Origin: an uncultured Atopobiaceae bacterium
GTDB taxonomy: Bacteria; Actinomycetota; Coriobacteriia; Coriobacteriales; Atopobiaceae
NCBI GenBank assembly: GCA_947631545.1
Contig: CANRLS010000011.1
Location: forward strand, 1 to 32,489
Direction: 5' to 3'
Length of the DNA stretch: 32,489 bases
Shown: positions 1 through 5,515 of the stretch, in pieces
How positions within the stretch are numbered: the stretch's first letter is position 1
Layout of the letters: the number at the start of each line of letters is the position of its first letter
The notes under the pieces: model-generated
Database searches by the model: none
The model's input: the letters and a program-made list of their open reading frames with translations, nothing else
Told to the model about the DNA's origin: nothing
Translations under genes and position numbers: made by a program

Positions 1-3000
1 GCGTCGCCATCGTCACCGAGGTGACGATCGGCAGCACGACGCCGCTGAACGTCTACGCCGTCTGGGCCATCGATTCGAACGGCAATGGAGAGCCGGACTA
101 CAGCGAGACGGTCACGCTCGCCTACGACGCGAACCAGCCGGCCGATAGGGATTGCTCTGTGGCGGGCGTGCCCAGCCCCCAGACGGCGGCCCTCATCGAC
201 GGTTCGGTGACGGTCCCGAGGACGATCCCCACGTGCACGGTGACGGACGGCAAGGCCGCGCTCGTATTCCTGGGCTGGTCGTGGACGGATCACGACGCCG
301 TCTACACGAAGACGAGCGAGGCGCCGAAGGACTACATCAGCGCGGCTGACGTGCTCGCAGGCAAAGAGATCAACGTGAGCGATATCACGTCTGGCCACAA
401 CACGCTCCACGCGCTCTGGGCCGAGGACACCGGCCCGTGCGGCGCACCTGACGGCACGCCCGACGTGCTGCAGTACAGCCGCTCGCTCACCTACACGCCG
501 GGCATCGGCACGGGCGACAGTAAAGCCGAACCCGTCACCGAGGGCACGAAGGTGCAGCTCAAGAGTGCCACGGGTAGCGATGGCCTGGGCATGACCGCGC
601 CTGCGGGCGATGCGGGCAGCACGGTGATCTTCGCCGGCTGGACCGAGGACGTCACCGACTACATCCTGGGCAAGGACATGACCGCGCTCCAGGTGCAGGT
701 CATGAGCGCCAAGCTCAAGCGGACGGGCGAGCTCTTCACGATGCCCGGCAAGGACACGACGCTGAACGCTGTCTGGGCCTACGACACCAACGACGACGGC
801 ATTCCCGACTTCAGCCAGGATAAGGCGTATCTGAACTACGTCTACGACTACTCGCTGGCGGAGAGCCTCGGTGCGAGCGCTCCGCCGCAGAGCGTGCAGT
901 TCCTCGTGGGGCAGACGAACATAGCGCTCTGGAACATTGCCGAGAACAATGACGGCAAGTCCTGGACATGCACGCTGGTCGAGGGCCCGAGCGTCTTCGT
1001 GGGCTGGACGCTGCACCGCGACTTTGGCTCTCAGGTGCTGGGCGAGGACGCGGATCCGGGCGATGACGGCTTCGGTGGGAAGCTCATCACAACGATCGAG
1101 AAGATCGAGCACGATACGACGGTCTACGCTGTCTGGGCGCTCGACACGGATGGCGACGGCACGCCCGATCACGGCGAGCGTGATGTGAAGCTCGAGTACT
1201 ACCAGTGCACGAGCGATACCCCCGCTTCCGAGTACACAATAGTTAAAGAGGTCACTGGTCTCGTGAGCGGCAAGAGCTATCCACTGCTTCCCGGCAAGGA
1301 CGATGGCGGCGCTCCGCTGAAGAAGACCTACACGATCATCGATGCCGATGGTGAATCAGAGACGTTCACCGCCGTCTTCGCCGGGTGGAGCGACAAGAAC
1401 CCGACTGAGGACACTTATGCGTCCGTGACGGATGCGGACGCCAAGGCCCTCTACGCCAAGGGCATCATCCCCGAGAACGAGTACGAGCTCGGGCAGGTGC
1501 TGAGCAACACCATCGTCGGCAAGAACAGCAACACCTACACCATCCCGGTGACCTGCAACGCTGATACGCCCGCCAAGCTCTACGCCATCTACGCGACGGA
1601 CCAGTGGGGCTCCGTCGACGAGGGCCCCGACGGCATCCCCGACTACCTCGAGACGGCGCAGCACGTGGAGTACTACGCAAACGGCGGCGTGGCCGTGAGC
1701 GCTGGCACGCAGGTCGATCCCTCGACGGGCCTCTTCTTCACCTGCATCGACCACCACCAGGCGGGCGGGCGCTACGACCTCATGTCCATCAGCGAGGGCC
1801 GCGAGCTCATCTACCACACCGATGGCGCGAGCTCTGCGAGCACCTATGGCGCGGCCGCCCCGCGCGCGATCGCCCGGGATGACGCCGTCCTCATCGGCTG
1901 GAGCCCCACGGCGTACGAGGGCTTCGTGGAGAGCGAGGCGCAGCTTGACGGGCCGGGCTTCGCCTACCCGCATACGGGCACGGGCCTGGGCATGACGTTC
2001 CAGATCGCGAGCTTCCCTGCCGAGGGCAACGCCACGGCCTATGCGCTCTGGGGCGCCGATGCCAACGGGAACGGCACTTGGGATGCGCGCGAGACGCGCT
2101 TCACCGTGGCCTACGACCTCAACGGCGGAACGGGATCCACGGGGACGCCCGCGAGCCAGACGGGCTACGCGATGCAGGCCATCACCACCGCGACGGGCGA
2201 CTGGACGAGCCAGATCAACCGCATGAGCGGCGTCTTCTGCGGCTGGACGACGACCCGGATCCCGGGCATCGTGAGCCGTGACGGCCTGTACCTGGCGGCG
2301 GATGGCAGCACGGGCAGCATCGGCTCCGGCGACGTGATCGCGGGCGGCGCCGAGTTCACGATTCCCAACAGCGGCGGTGACACGCTCACGCTCTACGCGG
2401 TCTACGGCGAGGACCTGAACGGCAACGGCACCGCAGACCTCTTGGAAGACGGCTATCGCGTGGTCTACCACGCCAATGGCGGCACGGCGGAGACGGGTTC
2501 GGACTTCACGCGAGATTCAAGCGGAGGCTTCTCTTACATCTGCTCGCACCATCACGTGGCGGGCGAGAAGAACGTGGCGCTGCTCTCCGTGAGCGAGCCG
2601 CCGGCCTCGCAGCTGACGAGGAGCGGGTACGTGCTCATCGGCTGGTCGGAGGATTCGGATCCGAAGCTCTGCGAGAACATTGCCGACGAAACCGCAATCC
2701 ATCTCATCGGCCCCAACGCGACCATCACGATGCCCAGTCCCGGTAAGGATCTCGACGTCTACGCCGTGTGGGCCAAGGACGACAACGGCAACCATGTAGC
2801 CGATTACCGCGAGGGCCACGACCTGGGCGTCGAGTACTACGCCAACGGCGGCACGCTGCAGGATGGCGCCTCCGCGGAGTTCTGGAACGCAGCGAGTGGG
2901 CTCTTCTACATCGACTACGGCCACTACCAGCCGGGCGAGACGGATGTGCCGCTCATCTCGGCCAACACGGGCGTGACCTGGATCCATCGCCAGGGCGCGA

Positions 3001-3186
3001 CGCTGCTCGGCTGGTCGCTAAAGCCTGGCATTCGCGTGTGCCAGAACGAGGGTGACGAGCAGCTGGCCAGGCTCATCGGTGCCGTGCCGAAGATGCCCGA
3101 CGACTCGAACGCCCAGGTCTTCGCCGTGTGGGCGGTGGACGACAACGGCAACTTCGTGCCCGACTACGCGGAGCCGAAGAGCCCGG
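1..3186 (+). repeat. Protein-level array of B-repeats ending in acidic DxNxNGxxD loops
   Basis: Nine module ends are visible, each an aromatic YAVWA/YALWG/YAVYG strand followed by an acidic Asn/Asp/Gly loop. Examples are AIDSNGNGEPDY (near base 69), ALDTDGDGTPDH (near 1137), GADANGNGTWD (near 2052) and AVDDNGNFVPDY (near 3132). The loops resemble calcium-binding EF-hand or thrombospondin type 3 loops. Eight GWS/GWT strands alternate with them. The copies are divergent in DNA, so this is an old protein repeat rather than a recent tandem duplication. Confidence 0.75.
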
Positions 3187-3809
3187 ATCCCGGCCACGTT
3201 GACGATGGCGGGCTCACGCCTGGCCCGGACAACCCCGATAACCCGGACAACCCCGATGATCCCGACAACCCCGACAATCCCGACGAGCCCGGCGGCGAGG
3301 ACTCGACCTTCCCGGTGCATAGACTCTACAACCCCAACACCGGCGAGCACCTCTTCACCATCGATGCCAACGAGGTGCGCGTGCTCGCGGGCGCGGGCGG
3401 CCGCGGCTGGAAGTACGAGGGCTACGCCTGGGTCTCGCCCGCGACCTCGTCGCAGCCGGTCCATCGCCTCTACAACCCCAACACCGGCGAGCACCTCTAC
3501 ACCCGCGACGAGACGGAGGTGACGGCGCTCTCGGGCGCGGGCGGCCGCGGCTGGCAGTACGAGGGAGTGTGCTGGTACAGCGACGAGGCCAAGATCGCTC
3601 CGATCTATCGCCTCTACAACCCGAACAACCCCGGTGCCGGCGCGCACCTGTACTCGACGGATGCCCACGAGTACGACGTGCTGCAGCCCAGGGGCTGGAA
3701 GGGCGAGGGCATCGGTTGGTACGCCGCCGGCCCCGGCACGCCCGGCTGGTCGGGCGATCCCGCCTTCCCCGCGTGGGCGCGGGCGATCCTGAGGGCCCAG
3801 GGCCAGTAG
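1..3809 (+). CDS. Large secreted B-repeat protein, 5' end outside window
   Basis: The reading frame is open from the window edge (codons in frame from base 3) to a TAG at 3807-3809, so 1,268 residues are visible and the N-terminus, with any signal peptide, is missing. Most of it is InlB B-repeat-like (Listeria-Bacteroides repeat) modules. Each has a YDANGG or YYANGG-like strand, a GWS/GWT strand seen eight times, and a closing YAVWA-like strand followed by an acidic DxNGNGxxD loop. A DNP-rich linker and three 48-residue repeats of the RLYNPNTGEHL type (resembling DUF5648) follow. No LPXTG motif or C-terminal membrane anchor is present, so attachment, if any, would be non-covalent. B-repeat proteins are generally surface adhesins or stalks; the exact role here is unknown. 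Codon use in places is more AT-rich than in the neighbours. Confidence 0.85.
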   Translation, partial: VAIVTEVTIGSTTPLNVYAVWAIDSNGNGEPDYSETVTLAYDANQPADRDCSVAGVPSPQTAALIDGSVTVPRTIPTCTVTDGKAALVFLGWSWTDHDAVYTKTSEAPKDYISAADVLAGKEINVSDITSGHNTLHALWAEDTGPCGAPDGTPDVLQYSRSLTYTPGIGTGDSKAEPVTEGTKVQLKSATGSDGLGMTAPAGDAGSTVIFAGWTEDVTDYILGKDMTALQVQVMSAKLKRTGELFTMPGKDTTLNAVWAYDTNDDGIPDFSQDKAYLNYVYDYSLAESLGASAPPQSVQFLVGQTNIALWNIAENNDGKSWTCTLVEGPSVFVGWTLHRDFGSQVLGEDADPGDDGFGGKLITTIEKIEHDTTVYAVWALDTDGDGTPDHGERDVKLEYYQCTSDTPASEYTIVKEVTGLVSGKSYPLLPGKDDGGAPLKKTYTIIDADGESETFTAVFAGWSDKNPTEDTYASVTDADAKALYAKGIIPENEYELGQVLSNTIVGKNSNTYTIPVTCNADTPAKLYAIYATDQWGSVDEGPDGIPDYLETAQHVEYYANGGVAVSAGTQVDPSTGLFFTCIDHHQAGGRYDLMSISEGRELIYHTDGASSASTYGAAAPRAIARDDAVLIGWSPTAYEGFVESEAQLDGPGFAYPHTGTGLGMTFQIASFPAEGNATAYALWGADANGNGTWDARETRFTVAYDLNGGTGSTGTPASQTGYAMQAITTATGDWTSQINRMSGVFCGWTTTRIPGIVSRDGLYLAADGSTGSIGSGDVIAGGAEFTIPNSGGDTLTLYAVYGEDLNGNGTADLLEDGYRVVYHANGGTAETGSDFTRDSSGGFSYICSHHHVAGEKNVALLSVSEPPASQLTRSGYVLIGWSEDSDPKLCENIADETAIHLIGPNATITMPSPGKDLDVYAVWAKDDNGNHVADYREGHDLGVEYYANGGTLQDGASAEFWNAASGLFYIDYGHYQPGETDVPLISANTGVTWIHRQGATLLGWSLKPGIRVCQNEGDEQLARLIGAVPKMPDDSNAQVFAVWAVDDNGNFVPDYAEPKSPDPGHVDDGGLTPGPDNPDNPDNPDDPDNPDNPDEPGGEDSTFPVHRLYNPNTGEHLFTIDANEVRVLAGAGGRGWKYEGYAWVSPATSSQPVHRLYNPNTGEHLYTRDETEVTALSGAGGRGWQYEGVCWYSDEAKIAPIYRLYNPNNPGAGAHLYSTDAHEYDVLQPRGWKGEGIGWYAAGPGTPGWSGDPAFPAWARAILRAQGQ
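3228..3290 (+). repeat. DNP-type 9-bp tandem repeat, protein linker
   Basis: Seven successive nine-base units encode Asp-Asn-Pro or close variants (DNP, DDP, DEP). The unit is gac-aac-ccc with third-base changes. It makes a stiff acidic proline-rich spacer between the B-repeat array and the C-terminal repeats. Unit number could vary by slippage. Confidence 0.9.
3315..3746 (+). repeat. Three tandem 144-bp (48-residue) repeats
   Basis: Copies begin at 3315, 3459 and 3603, exactly 144 bases apart. Each begins with (V/I)(H/Y)RLYNPN, continues with GEHL or GAHL, then (F/Y)(T/S)xD, and ends with GW(K/Q)xEGxxW. Copies 1 and 2 are nearly identical over RLYNPNTGEHL and GAGGRGW; copy 3 has an extra NPGAG insertion and loses residues later, so the spacing stays the same. 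The pattern resembles DUF5648, found at the ends of secreted proteins, where a wall- or glycan-binding role is suspected but unproven. Confidence 0.85.
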
Positions 3810-3867: not shown

Positions 3868-4133
3868 TTCTCGTTCGCGCCGATCGCGAAGCCAAAGCGC
3901 AGGCGGCGGGGCTGCGCCCAGAGGAGTTTCCTCATACCGACGGGCGCTCGGCGGCGGGGCCGACGGGCATCCTCGTGCGAACGGGTAAGCGGGGGGGCGG
4001 GCGGGGCGTGCGCCGACGCAAAAAGGGGAAGACCGCCCGCGCGTCCGCTCCGGCATGAATGAGCGCTCCGGTGCGACGAATGCCGCCGCTGTCACCGCTG
4101 CGCGACGGATTCCATGCCGGCACCACCGGCGCG

Positions 4134-4141: not shown

Positions 4142-4202
4142 CTGGGGTGGGTCGCAACCTACGAGCCGGAACGCATCGGCTCACAAGAAGGAGGGATCGT
4201 CC

Positions 4203-4502
4203 ATGAACGAGAACATGAAGGCCATCCTCGAGGCCATCTCCGAAGACGAGGAACTCAAGGCCGAGGCCACGACCCTCATGAGCGAGCTCGCCGCCGCCGA
4301 CGAGGATCGCCCCGAGGTCGTCGCCCGCGTCCTCGTCTTCGCCCACGACAGGGGCTTCGAGCTCTCCGAGGAGGACCTCGTCATCGAGGCGCCGGCGGAG
4401 GGTAGGGTCGAGGACGAGGAGCTGGCGGCCGTCGCCGGCGGGTGCGGTTCCTGCGGAAGCAGCTCCACCGCCATCACCTCCCTCACCTCGAGCGTGATGT
4501 AG
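4203..4502 (+). CDS. Nif11-like leader peptide, orphan RiPP precursor
   Basis: A 99-residue peptide. The start is set by a strong Shine-Dalgarno AAGGAGG at 4188-4194, eight bases before ATG 4203; the same frame is open further upstream but without a ribosome-binding site. Residues 1 to about 65 look like a Nif11-type leader: acidic and helical, with the pattern FAHDRGFELSEEDL typical of the family's end. Next come EDEELAAVAGG, a double-glycine leader-cleavage motif, and then a 19-residue core, CGSCGSSSTAITSLTSSVM. The core holds two Cys, seven Ser and three Thr, the residues that lanthionine- or azole-forming enzymes modify. In the family the leader is recognised by a modifying enzyme and removed by a C39-type protease/exporter. 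None of these is encoded in the window, so enzyme and product are unknown. Neighbours are the repeat protein upstream and murI downstream. Confidence 0.8.
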   Translation: MNENMKAILEAISEDEELKAEATTLMSELAAADEDRPEVVARVLVFAHDRGFELSEEDLVIEAPAEGRVEDEELAAVAGGCGSCGSSSTAITSLTSSVM

Positions 4503-4627: not shown

Positions 4628-5515
4628 GTGGATCCACGTCCCATAGGCGTCTTCGACTCCGGACTCGGCGGCCTCACGGTGGCCCGCGCCATCGCCACGA
4701 CCCTTCCCCATGAATCGATGATCTACCTGGGCGATACGGCCCGTTGCCCCTACGGCCCGCGTCCCCAGGGCCAGGTGCGCGACTTCGTGCGCCAGATCGT
4801 CGCCTGGTTCGCCCATAAGGACGTGAAGCTCATCGTCATCGCCTGCAACACGGCGACGGCGGCGGGGCTCGACCTGGCCCAGCGGACGCTCGACGTGCCG
4901 GTGCTGGGCGTCATCGTGCCAGGTGCCCGCGCGGTGGTGCAGGCCACCCGCACGCGGCACGTGGGGGTGCTCGCCACGCAGGGCACCTGCGATTCCCTGA
5001 GCTATCCGGAGGCCATTCGCGCGCTCGACGCGGGCGTGAAGGTCTGGCAGGCCCCCTCCGCGCGCGGCGTGGAGGTGGTGGAGGAGCGCCTGGCGTCCCC
5101 GGCCGCGATGGGCAGGGACTGGATGAGCGATCGGGGCGCCTTCGACACGCCCCTCGTGCGCGCCATCGCCGAGGAGGATACGGCGCCGCTCAGGGGCCAG
5201 GGCATCGACGCCGTCATCCTGGGCTGCACCCATTTCCCGCTCTTGAAGGACGAGTACCAGCGAGCGCTGGGGCCGGGCGTTCGGGTCGTGTCGTCGGCGG
5301 AGGAGACGGCGTCGGAAGTGGTCGAGTACCTGGAGCGGGGAGAGGCCTTCGCGCCCGCGATCATGGACGATGCCGGCGGCGGCGAGCCCGCCTACCACTT
5401 CGCCACCACGTCCGATGAGCTGGGCTCCTTCGCCGTGGCGGGGGAATACGTCTTCGGCCGCAAGCTCGCGCTCGTGGAGCATGTGGACGAGGGCCTGCTG
5501 GAGCGTCTCGGCTAG
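4628..5515 (+). CDS. murI: Glutamate racemase
   Basis: Converts L-glutamate to D-glutamate for peptidoglycan synthesis in the cytoplasm, without a cofactor, using two cysteines. The 295-residue product shows the family motifs in order: GVFDSGLGGLTV (residues 7-18, with Asp10 and Ser11), YLGDTARCPYG (33-43), IACNTAT (71-77, first catalytic Cys73) and ILGCTHFPLL (197-206, second catalytic Cys200). Length is slightly above the usual 260-290. The start is GTG at 4628, preceded by GGGAGG at 4618-4623, and the palindrome GTGGATCCAC spans the start codon. rdgB follows after a highly structured 88-base gap; murI and rdgB are also near neighbours in Bacillus (racE to rdgB). Confidence 0.96.
   Translation: MDPRPIGVFDSGLGGLTVARAIATTLPHESMIYLGDTARCPYGPRPQGQVRDFVRQIVAWFAHKDVKLIVIACNTATAAGLDLAQRTLDVPVLGVIVPGARAVVQATRTRHVGVLATQGTCDSLSYPEAIRALDAGVKVWQAPSARGVEVVEERLASPAAMGRDWMSDRGAFDTPLVRAIAEEDTAPLRGQGIDAVILGCTHFPLLKDEYQRALGPGVRVVSSAEETASEVVEYLERGEAFAPAIMDDAGGGEPAYHFATTSDELGSFAVAGEYVFGRKLALVEHVDEGLLERLG

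Follow-up and report, generated by a model that had tools for sequence, protein, structure and literature searches.

A dispersed set of Nif11-type precursor peptides with a common leader and variable cysteine-containing cores, and a candidate radical SAM maturase, in an uncultured Atopobiaceae bacterium

In the genome of an uncultured Atopobiaceae bacterium (1.74 Mb on 136 contigs, 98.4% complete, GC content 67%), a short gene encodes a peptide that is built like a RiPP precursor. Gene content and GC suggest that the organism is a gut-type member of the Coriobacteriia. The gene lies in a stretch of 32,489 nucleotides (the window; contig C11), in which, as a first-pass annotation had correctly stated, no RiPP enzyme was found. 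Its neighbours are a gene for a DUF5648 repeat protein (21-3809) and murI (4628-5515). How could a product be made from such a precursor, and is one made at all? We consider it probable, if well short of assured, that the gene belongs to a dispersed, natural-combinatorial family of Cys-crosslinked peptides, on which a radical SAM maturase would act in trans and for which an NHLM system would serve as exporter.

The precursor gene and its same-leader relatives

The gene (4203-4502, + strand) encodes a 99-aa peptide with the following features.

4188..4194, + strand: Shine-Dalgarno sequence AAGGAGG, 8 nt before the ATG; comparable purine-rich sites occur in the paralogues
4203..4442, + strand: Nif11-like leader of 80 aa, MNENMKAILEAISEDEELKAEATTLMSELAAADEDRPEVVARVLVFAHDRGFELSEEDLVIEAPAEGRVEDEELAAVAGG, opening with the ATG at 4203 and ending in DEELAAVAGG; 66-76% identity to the leaders of the four other intact paralogues
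4437..4442, + strand: double-glycine codons, the predicted C39 cleavage site; homology to the paralogues stops here or up to 4 codons further on
4443..4499, + strand: core peptide of 19 aa, CGSCGSSSTAITSLTSSVM, with only the N-terminal Cys and a second one in common with the cores of the paralogues
4500..4502, + strand: stop codon TAG

The mechanical open reading frame opens earlier, at 4059 (147 aa). The likely start is 4203, since all intact paralogues with the same leader begin at the Met of MNEN. Between 3800 and 4700, scans revealed neither a sigma-70 promoter nor a terminator on the + strand, and an Rfam scan of the window yielded tRNAs only. The upstream repeat protein (1262 aa) is of the surface type, with List_Bact-like repeats (weak matches) and the DUF5648 domain at its C-terminus (E = 1.1e-42); it is probably cut off at the contig start.

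The TIGR03798 leader_Nif11 profile matches residues 3-80 with E = 4.4e-7 and 30.0 bits (curated cut-off 32.3), and the Pfam Nif11 profile scores 13.2 bits on the leader (cut-off 23.8). Judged from sequence, the gene is a genuine RiPP-type precursor and chance is excluded, because the same leader recurs in the genome (93-172 bits) and homology breaks near the GG codons. The ribosome-binding site, the Nif11-like leader, the GG site and a 19-residue core with two Cys, seven Ser and three Thr are as the first-pass annotation described them. Its term "orphan" does not hold: nine loci in the genome carry the leader or part of it.

Five of these loci are intact and free of frameshifts (the window gene, C108a, C59, C1a and C1b), one is interrupted by a contig end (C108b), two are truncated and one is a leaderless core. 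A model of the window-type leader recovered seven of them, on C59, C108 (two), C11 (the window), C1 (two) and C31, the C31 copy being devoid of the first part of the leader. At position 55839 of C2 lies a short-leader copy in which IPEAPAEGKVEDEELAVVAGG precedes the core CSCGFLYFT. The leaderless core is located 3' of the second C1 gene (C1:43027-43049; stretch L013, about 9547, - strand), where DEPLALVAGG is followed by CSYCQDNFIQYCVAAAG (core DEPLALVAGGCSYCQDNFIQYCVAAAG); C31 and C2:55839 are similar remnants that retain part of the leader. The same-leader precursors are spread over at least six contigs, apart from the exporter operons.

In every one of the nine cores, Cys occupies position 1 or 2, and at least one more is present. 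The patterns in the intact genes are CGSC (window), CGS..C (C108a), CGGC..C (C59), GCGDHC (C1a) and C..C (C1b); those of the incomplete loci are GCDTSC (C108b), GCGDC (C31), CSC (C2) and CSYC..C (leaderless core on C1).

A TIGR03798 search of the genome at E<=10 gave 13 matches, three of them above the cut-off, including those on C10 (39.5 bits) and C18 (33.2 bits), and all align as one family. The C10 locus (stretch L009, 9658-10585) consists of two tandem gene copies with identical 48-residue cores containing three Cys, with no adjoining enzyme recognised. On C93 (stretch L015, 1-4543), six or more short-leader GG peptides with different cores follow one another; a near-repeat of one of them, VSSEAGLTMASDSRLNMGNIRPKPRIKGH, lies shortly before the NHLM operon of C2 (stretch L019, 10586-10837). 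On C78 (stretch L080, 958-1488), as in stretches L095 and L113 of congeners, a Nif11-like leader precedes a long amphipathic Gly/Lys-rich core (GNIFSDLWSGIKKAGEDLWGGVKK...), the product of which looks like an unmodified helical bacteriocin.

Conserved leaders, variable cores and their junctions

Orthologues of the window gene were found neither in the five congeners nor in 134 further genomes of the family, nor in viral contigs; the genome_contigs collection likewise contained none and gave a single match, to a leader end in Methylovulum. Among the 140 family genomes, the window-type leader is confined to the source species, and conservation was assessed on the paralogues for that reason. Mean pairwise protein identity among the five intact genes is 72% for the leaders and 27% for the cores, shuffled cores giving 20%. 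The pattern that the first-pass annotation had asked about in orthologues, a conserved leader with a variable core, is borne out by these paralogues. The leader closest to that of the window gene is that of C108a (76%). Between diverged copies, leader dN/dS is 0.58-0.77, indicative of moderate constraint. In blastn comparisons of the window gene with those paralogues of its genome that keep the leader end, the match stops at 4444-4454, no more than 4 codons past the GG codons.

The sharpest junction was seen in C1a and C1b, which are neighbours on a 97-kb contig. They share 333 nt without a difference, of which 104 nt lie upstream and 229 nt form the start of the leader. The identity ends 8 nt before the GG codons, and beyond it the cores are unrelated (GCGDHCEQIHEGLVF in C1a, CTDDLHEYCGSLAY in C1b). 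Point mutation is not a plausible source of this pattern, which would be accounted for if a promoter-leader segment had been copied and joined to another core. The repeated block, which has a few differences at its edge, has its start within the final codons of the gene preceding C1a (VIIDVQDSE stop), so that C1a is the likely source. Similarities of leader ends between C1b and C108a and between C1a and C31 are too short to prove gene conversion.

New members of the family may thus arise when a promoter-plus-leader segment is copied ahead of another core and joined to it around the DEELAxVxGG codons. The corresponding pattern was observed in one pair, C1a and C1b; by extension, it may apply to the other members. 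A more speculative proposal, to which we give little credence, is that the truncated and leaderless cores (C1:43027, C31 and C2:55839) form a silent store, and that recombination at the DEELAxVxGG codons places promoter and leader before a stored core and switches the exported radical-SAM peptide, as in silent-cassette systems.

Nif11 genes occur in all five congeners (5-17 matches each), most of them in another group, with the conserved core CVIIGAVKGCGCF. Since that group keeps its core, core exchange is not general to the Nif11 genes of the genus. In congener stretches L083, L084 and L085, several genes with this CVIIGAVKGCGCF core form tandem clusters; in the window group, by contrast, the cores vary.

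Candidate maturases and exporters

The first-pass annotation had proposed that the enzymes reside elsewhere in the genome and had made its reading depend on their presence there. Candidates are indeed present: a radical SAM-SPASM protein adjoins two same-leader precursors, and two NHLM C39-peptidase ABC exporters are encoded as well. Of the genes it named, those for radical SAM-SPASM enzymes, C39-ABC exporters and further peptides with the same leader were recovered, and those for LanM and YcaO were not.

The SPASM extension TIGR04085 is found above cut-off in four proteins of the genome. One of these, a 506-aa protein, is encoded on C108 directly downstream of the two precursors on the same strand, about 50 nt from C108a, with C108b further upstream. 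It contains the Pfam domains Radical_SAM (E = 2.6e-20) and SPASM (E = 7.9e-7), the CxxxCxxC motif in the form CNCNCRHC and the SPASM motif CX2CX5CX3C in the form CAACEHVLSCVGGC. Its best sequence match in the PDB is SkfB (6efn, E = 2.8e-13). Its NCBIfam scores lie below all listed equivalog cut-offs, the best partial matches including the sactipeptide maturase StsB and the nif11-class maturase 3. In an AlphaFold2 model (pLDDT 83.9, pTM 0.84), the N-terminus folds into a beta3-alpha3 domain resembling an RRE. SkfB, SuiB and CteB make up the top seven Foldseek matches of the model, over 424-496 columns. These three enzymes are RiPP maturases and carry RRE domains. A Pfam search of the maturases for a PqqD/RRE domain gave no match; from the model, an N-terminal RRE is predicted for the C108 enzyme.

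The C108 enzyme is not certain to be the partner of the window peptide, as three further radical SAM proteins (C18, C37 and C43) have the same N-terminal domain, which brings the number of candidates to four. On C18 (stretch L010, 7983-9812), a divergent Nif11 gene adjoins the radical SAM protein, a pair also kept in congeners; the cysteines of its SPASM motif are partly lost. Caution about the substrate of the C108 enzyme stems mainly from its orthologues in three congeners (58% identity), which lie tail-to-tail with a different GG peptide; the main substrate of the enzyme may therefore be a peptide that does not carry the window-type leader. Plasmid records contained only distant radical SAM proteins. 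A separate radical SAM-SPASM protein, encoded on C36 (stretch L027, 3-1145), belongs to the ACGX system (TIGR04340, 522 bits, cut-off 400).

Both C39-peptidase proteins of the genome (C2 and C34) are of the NHLM C39-protease/ABC type. The C2 pair scores 902 bits for NHLM ABC1 (cut-off 853) and 725 bits for ABC2 (cut-off 709) and is accompanied by a partial HlyD-like partner; a similar pair on C34 does not reach the cut-offs. Across the family (n = 140), an NHLM-type match occurs in 31 of 32 Nif11-positive genomes (leader match E<=1e-5) and in 20 of 108 Nif11-negative genomes (Fisher p = 1.8e-16, not corrected for shared ancestry and with an exporter threshold that lets in some ABC2 and partial matches). 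The one Nif11-positive genome that has no match is 69% complete.

Based on these observations, the following sequence of events is proposed. The ribosome makes the 99-aa precursor, seen as an intact open reading frame with a ribosome-binding site. The common leader would then be held in trans by the N-terminal RRE of the C108 enzyme, since the leader of the window gene matches those of the two precursors upstream of that enzyme. The enzyme would crosslink the core via Cys, most likely by thioether bonds like those of sactipeptides or ranthipeptides, as suggested by the conserved Cys and the SkfB/SuiB/CteB-like fold. Finally, an NHLM C39-peptidase ABC exporter would cut after GG and export the product. 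For the window peptide itself, we infer modification, action in trans, GG cleavage and export alike. We think it very probable that the product of the window gene is exported after removal of its leader and belongs to a functional family; modification by the radical SAM enzyme we hold to be somewhat better than an even chance. Counting against the proposal are the lack of an enzyme near the window gene and the score of its leader under the TIGR03798 cut-off, and the richness of the window core in Ser and Thr is left unexplained by it.

Alternatives and relation to known systems

The first-pass annotation had drawn attention to that richness; an emphasis on Ser/Thr and lanthionine was not upheld. 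Nif11 leaders serve LanM in cyanobacteria (PMC2887384), and with ten Ser/Thr and two Cys the window core could pass for that of a class II lanthipeptide. However, profile searches of the 98% complete genome at E<=10 gave no match to the LanM dehydratase domain (DUF4135) or the LanC-like domain, and both Cys of the window core sit at its N-terminus. The C1a core contains no Ser or Thr, which excludes lanthionine as the common modification; in this set of cores, Ser/Thr richness is peculiar to the window copy and Cys is the constant feature. The lanthipeptide reading is thus largely refuted and very improbable. A thiazole/oxazole-modified peptide (LAP/TOMM) was rejected, since no real YcaO was found in the genome; the only match covers 23 positions (19.5 bits, cut-off 25.7) inside a 1597-aa open frame. 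A more serious alternative, which we nevertheless regard as unlikely, is that the window peptide is leader-cleaved and exported but otherwise unmodified, with at most a Cys1-Cys4 disulfide, and that the radical SAM enzymes serve other precursors. It would fit the presence of NHLM exporters, the GG-type peptides without adjoining enzyme elsewhere in the genome, the association of the C108-enzyme orthologues with another peptide, and the fact that no maturase was recognised beside the window, C59, C1, C31 or C2 copies. It accords less well with the position of C108a and C108b, whose leaders are most akin to that of the window gene, directly upstream of the enzyme, and with a Cys pattern that is kept in all nine cores while all else changes. 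We think it improbable that the window gene and its paralogues are degenerating copies of a formerly functional precursor and yield no product today, as might be read from the two truncated copies and the leaderless one, the only moderately low dN/dS of the leader and the lack of orthologues in other species: the window copy has its ribosome-binding site, start, leader, GG and stop, none of the five intact copies is frameshifted, and the GG site and the Cys at core position 1 or 2 are kept in all.

The radical SAM-modified, exported family that we favour has several known counterparts. Haft et al. (2010; PMC2887384) have already described Nif11 precursors (N11P) that have undergone paralogous expansion, vary in their cores and occur with NHLM exporters; for Eggerthella lenta, they mention Nif11 peptides adjacent to an exporter of this type. 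The present set shares with the N11P (TIGR03798)/NHLM (TIGR03794/03796/03797) system the leader homology, the ELxDEELxxVxGG end, the paralogous expansion, the variable core after GG and an exporter in the genome; it differs in that the leader scores just under the cut-off, no cyclodehydratase or LanM was found and the precursors lie away from the exporter operons. As in the system of Haft (2011), one radical SAM-SPASM protein is the sole enzyme that comes into question beside the precursors on C108 and on C18. Unlike in that system, the C108 enzyme is weak on TIGR04103 (51 bits, cut-off 725), and no enzyme adjoins the window gene. With SkfB, SuiB and CteB the C108 enzyme has in common the RRE-like N-terminal domain, the CxxxCxxC radical SAM domain and the SPASM domain; it is closest to SkfB by sequence and near all three by fold, at about 13-20% identity in the structure alignments.

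The nine loci resemble the prochlorosins (ProcA/ProcM) of marine cyanobacteria in several traits: a common Nif11-type leader, unrelated cores, dispersed genes and, as proposed here, few enzymes acting in trans. In contrast to that system, the candidate enzyme is a radical SAM protein rather than LanM, a Cys follows just after GG in all copies, and the loci number about nine; prochlorosin precursors number dozens. For the prochlorosins, too, recombination has been proposed to contribute to diversity (PMC10783134). In the literature searched, no account of a comparable set with a radical SAM enzyme came up for this group of bacteria, though one may exist.

The C1a/C1b pair provides a clean natural junction, an identical leader followed by an unrelated core, that marks where cores swap. 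Should the C108 enzyme prove to accept the whole set of nine cores, peptide engineering could make use of it as a tolerant crosslinking enzyme. Natural combinatorial RiPP biosynthesis, in which one leader serves many products, would with this family extend from the cyanobacterial LanM to a candidate radical SAM maturase in what is apparently a gut actinobacterium.
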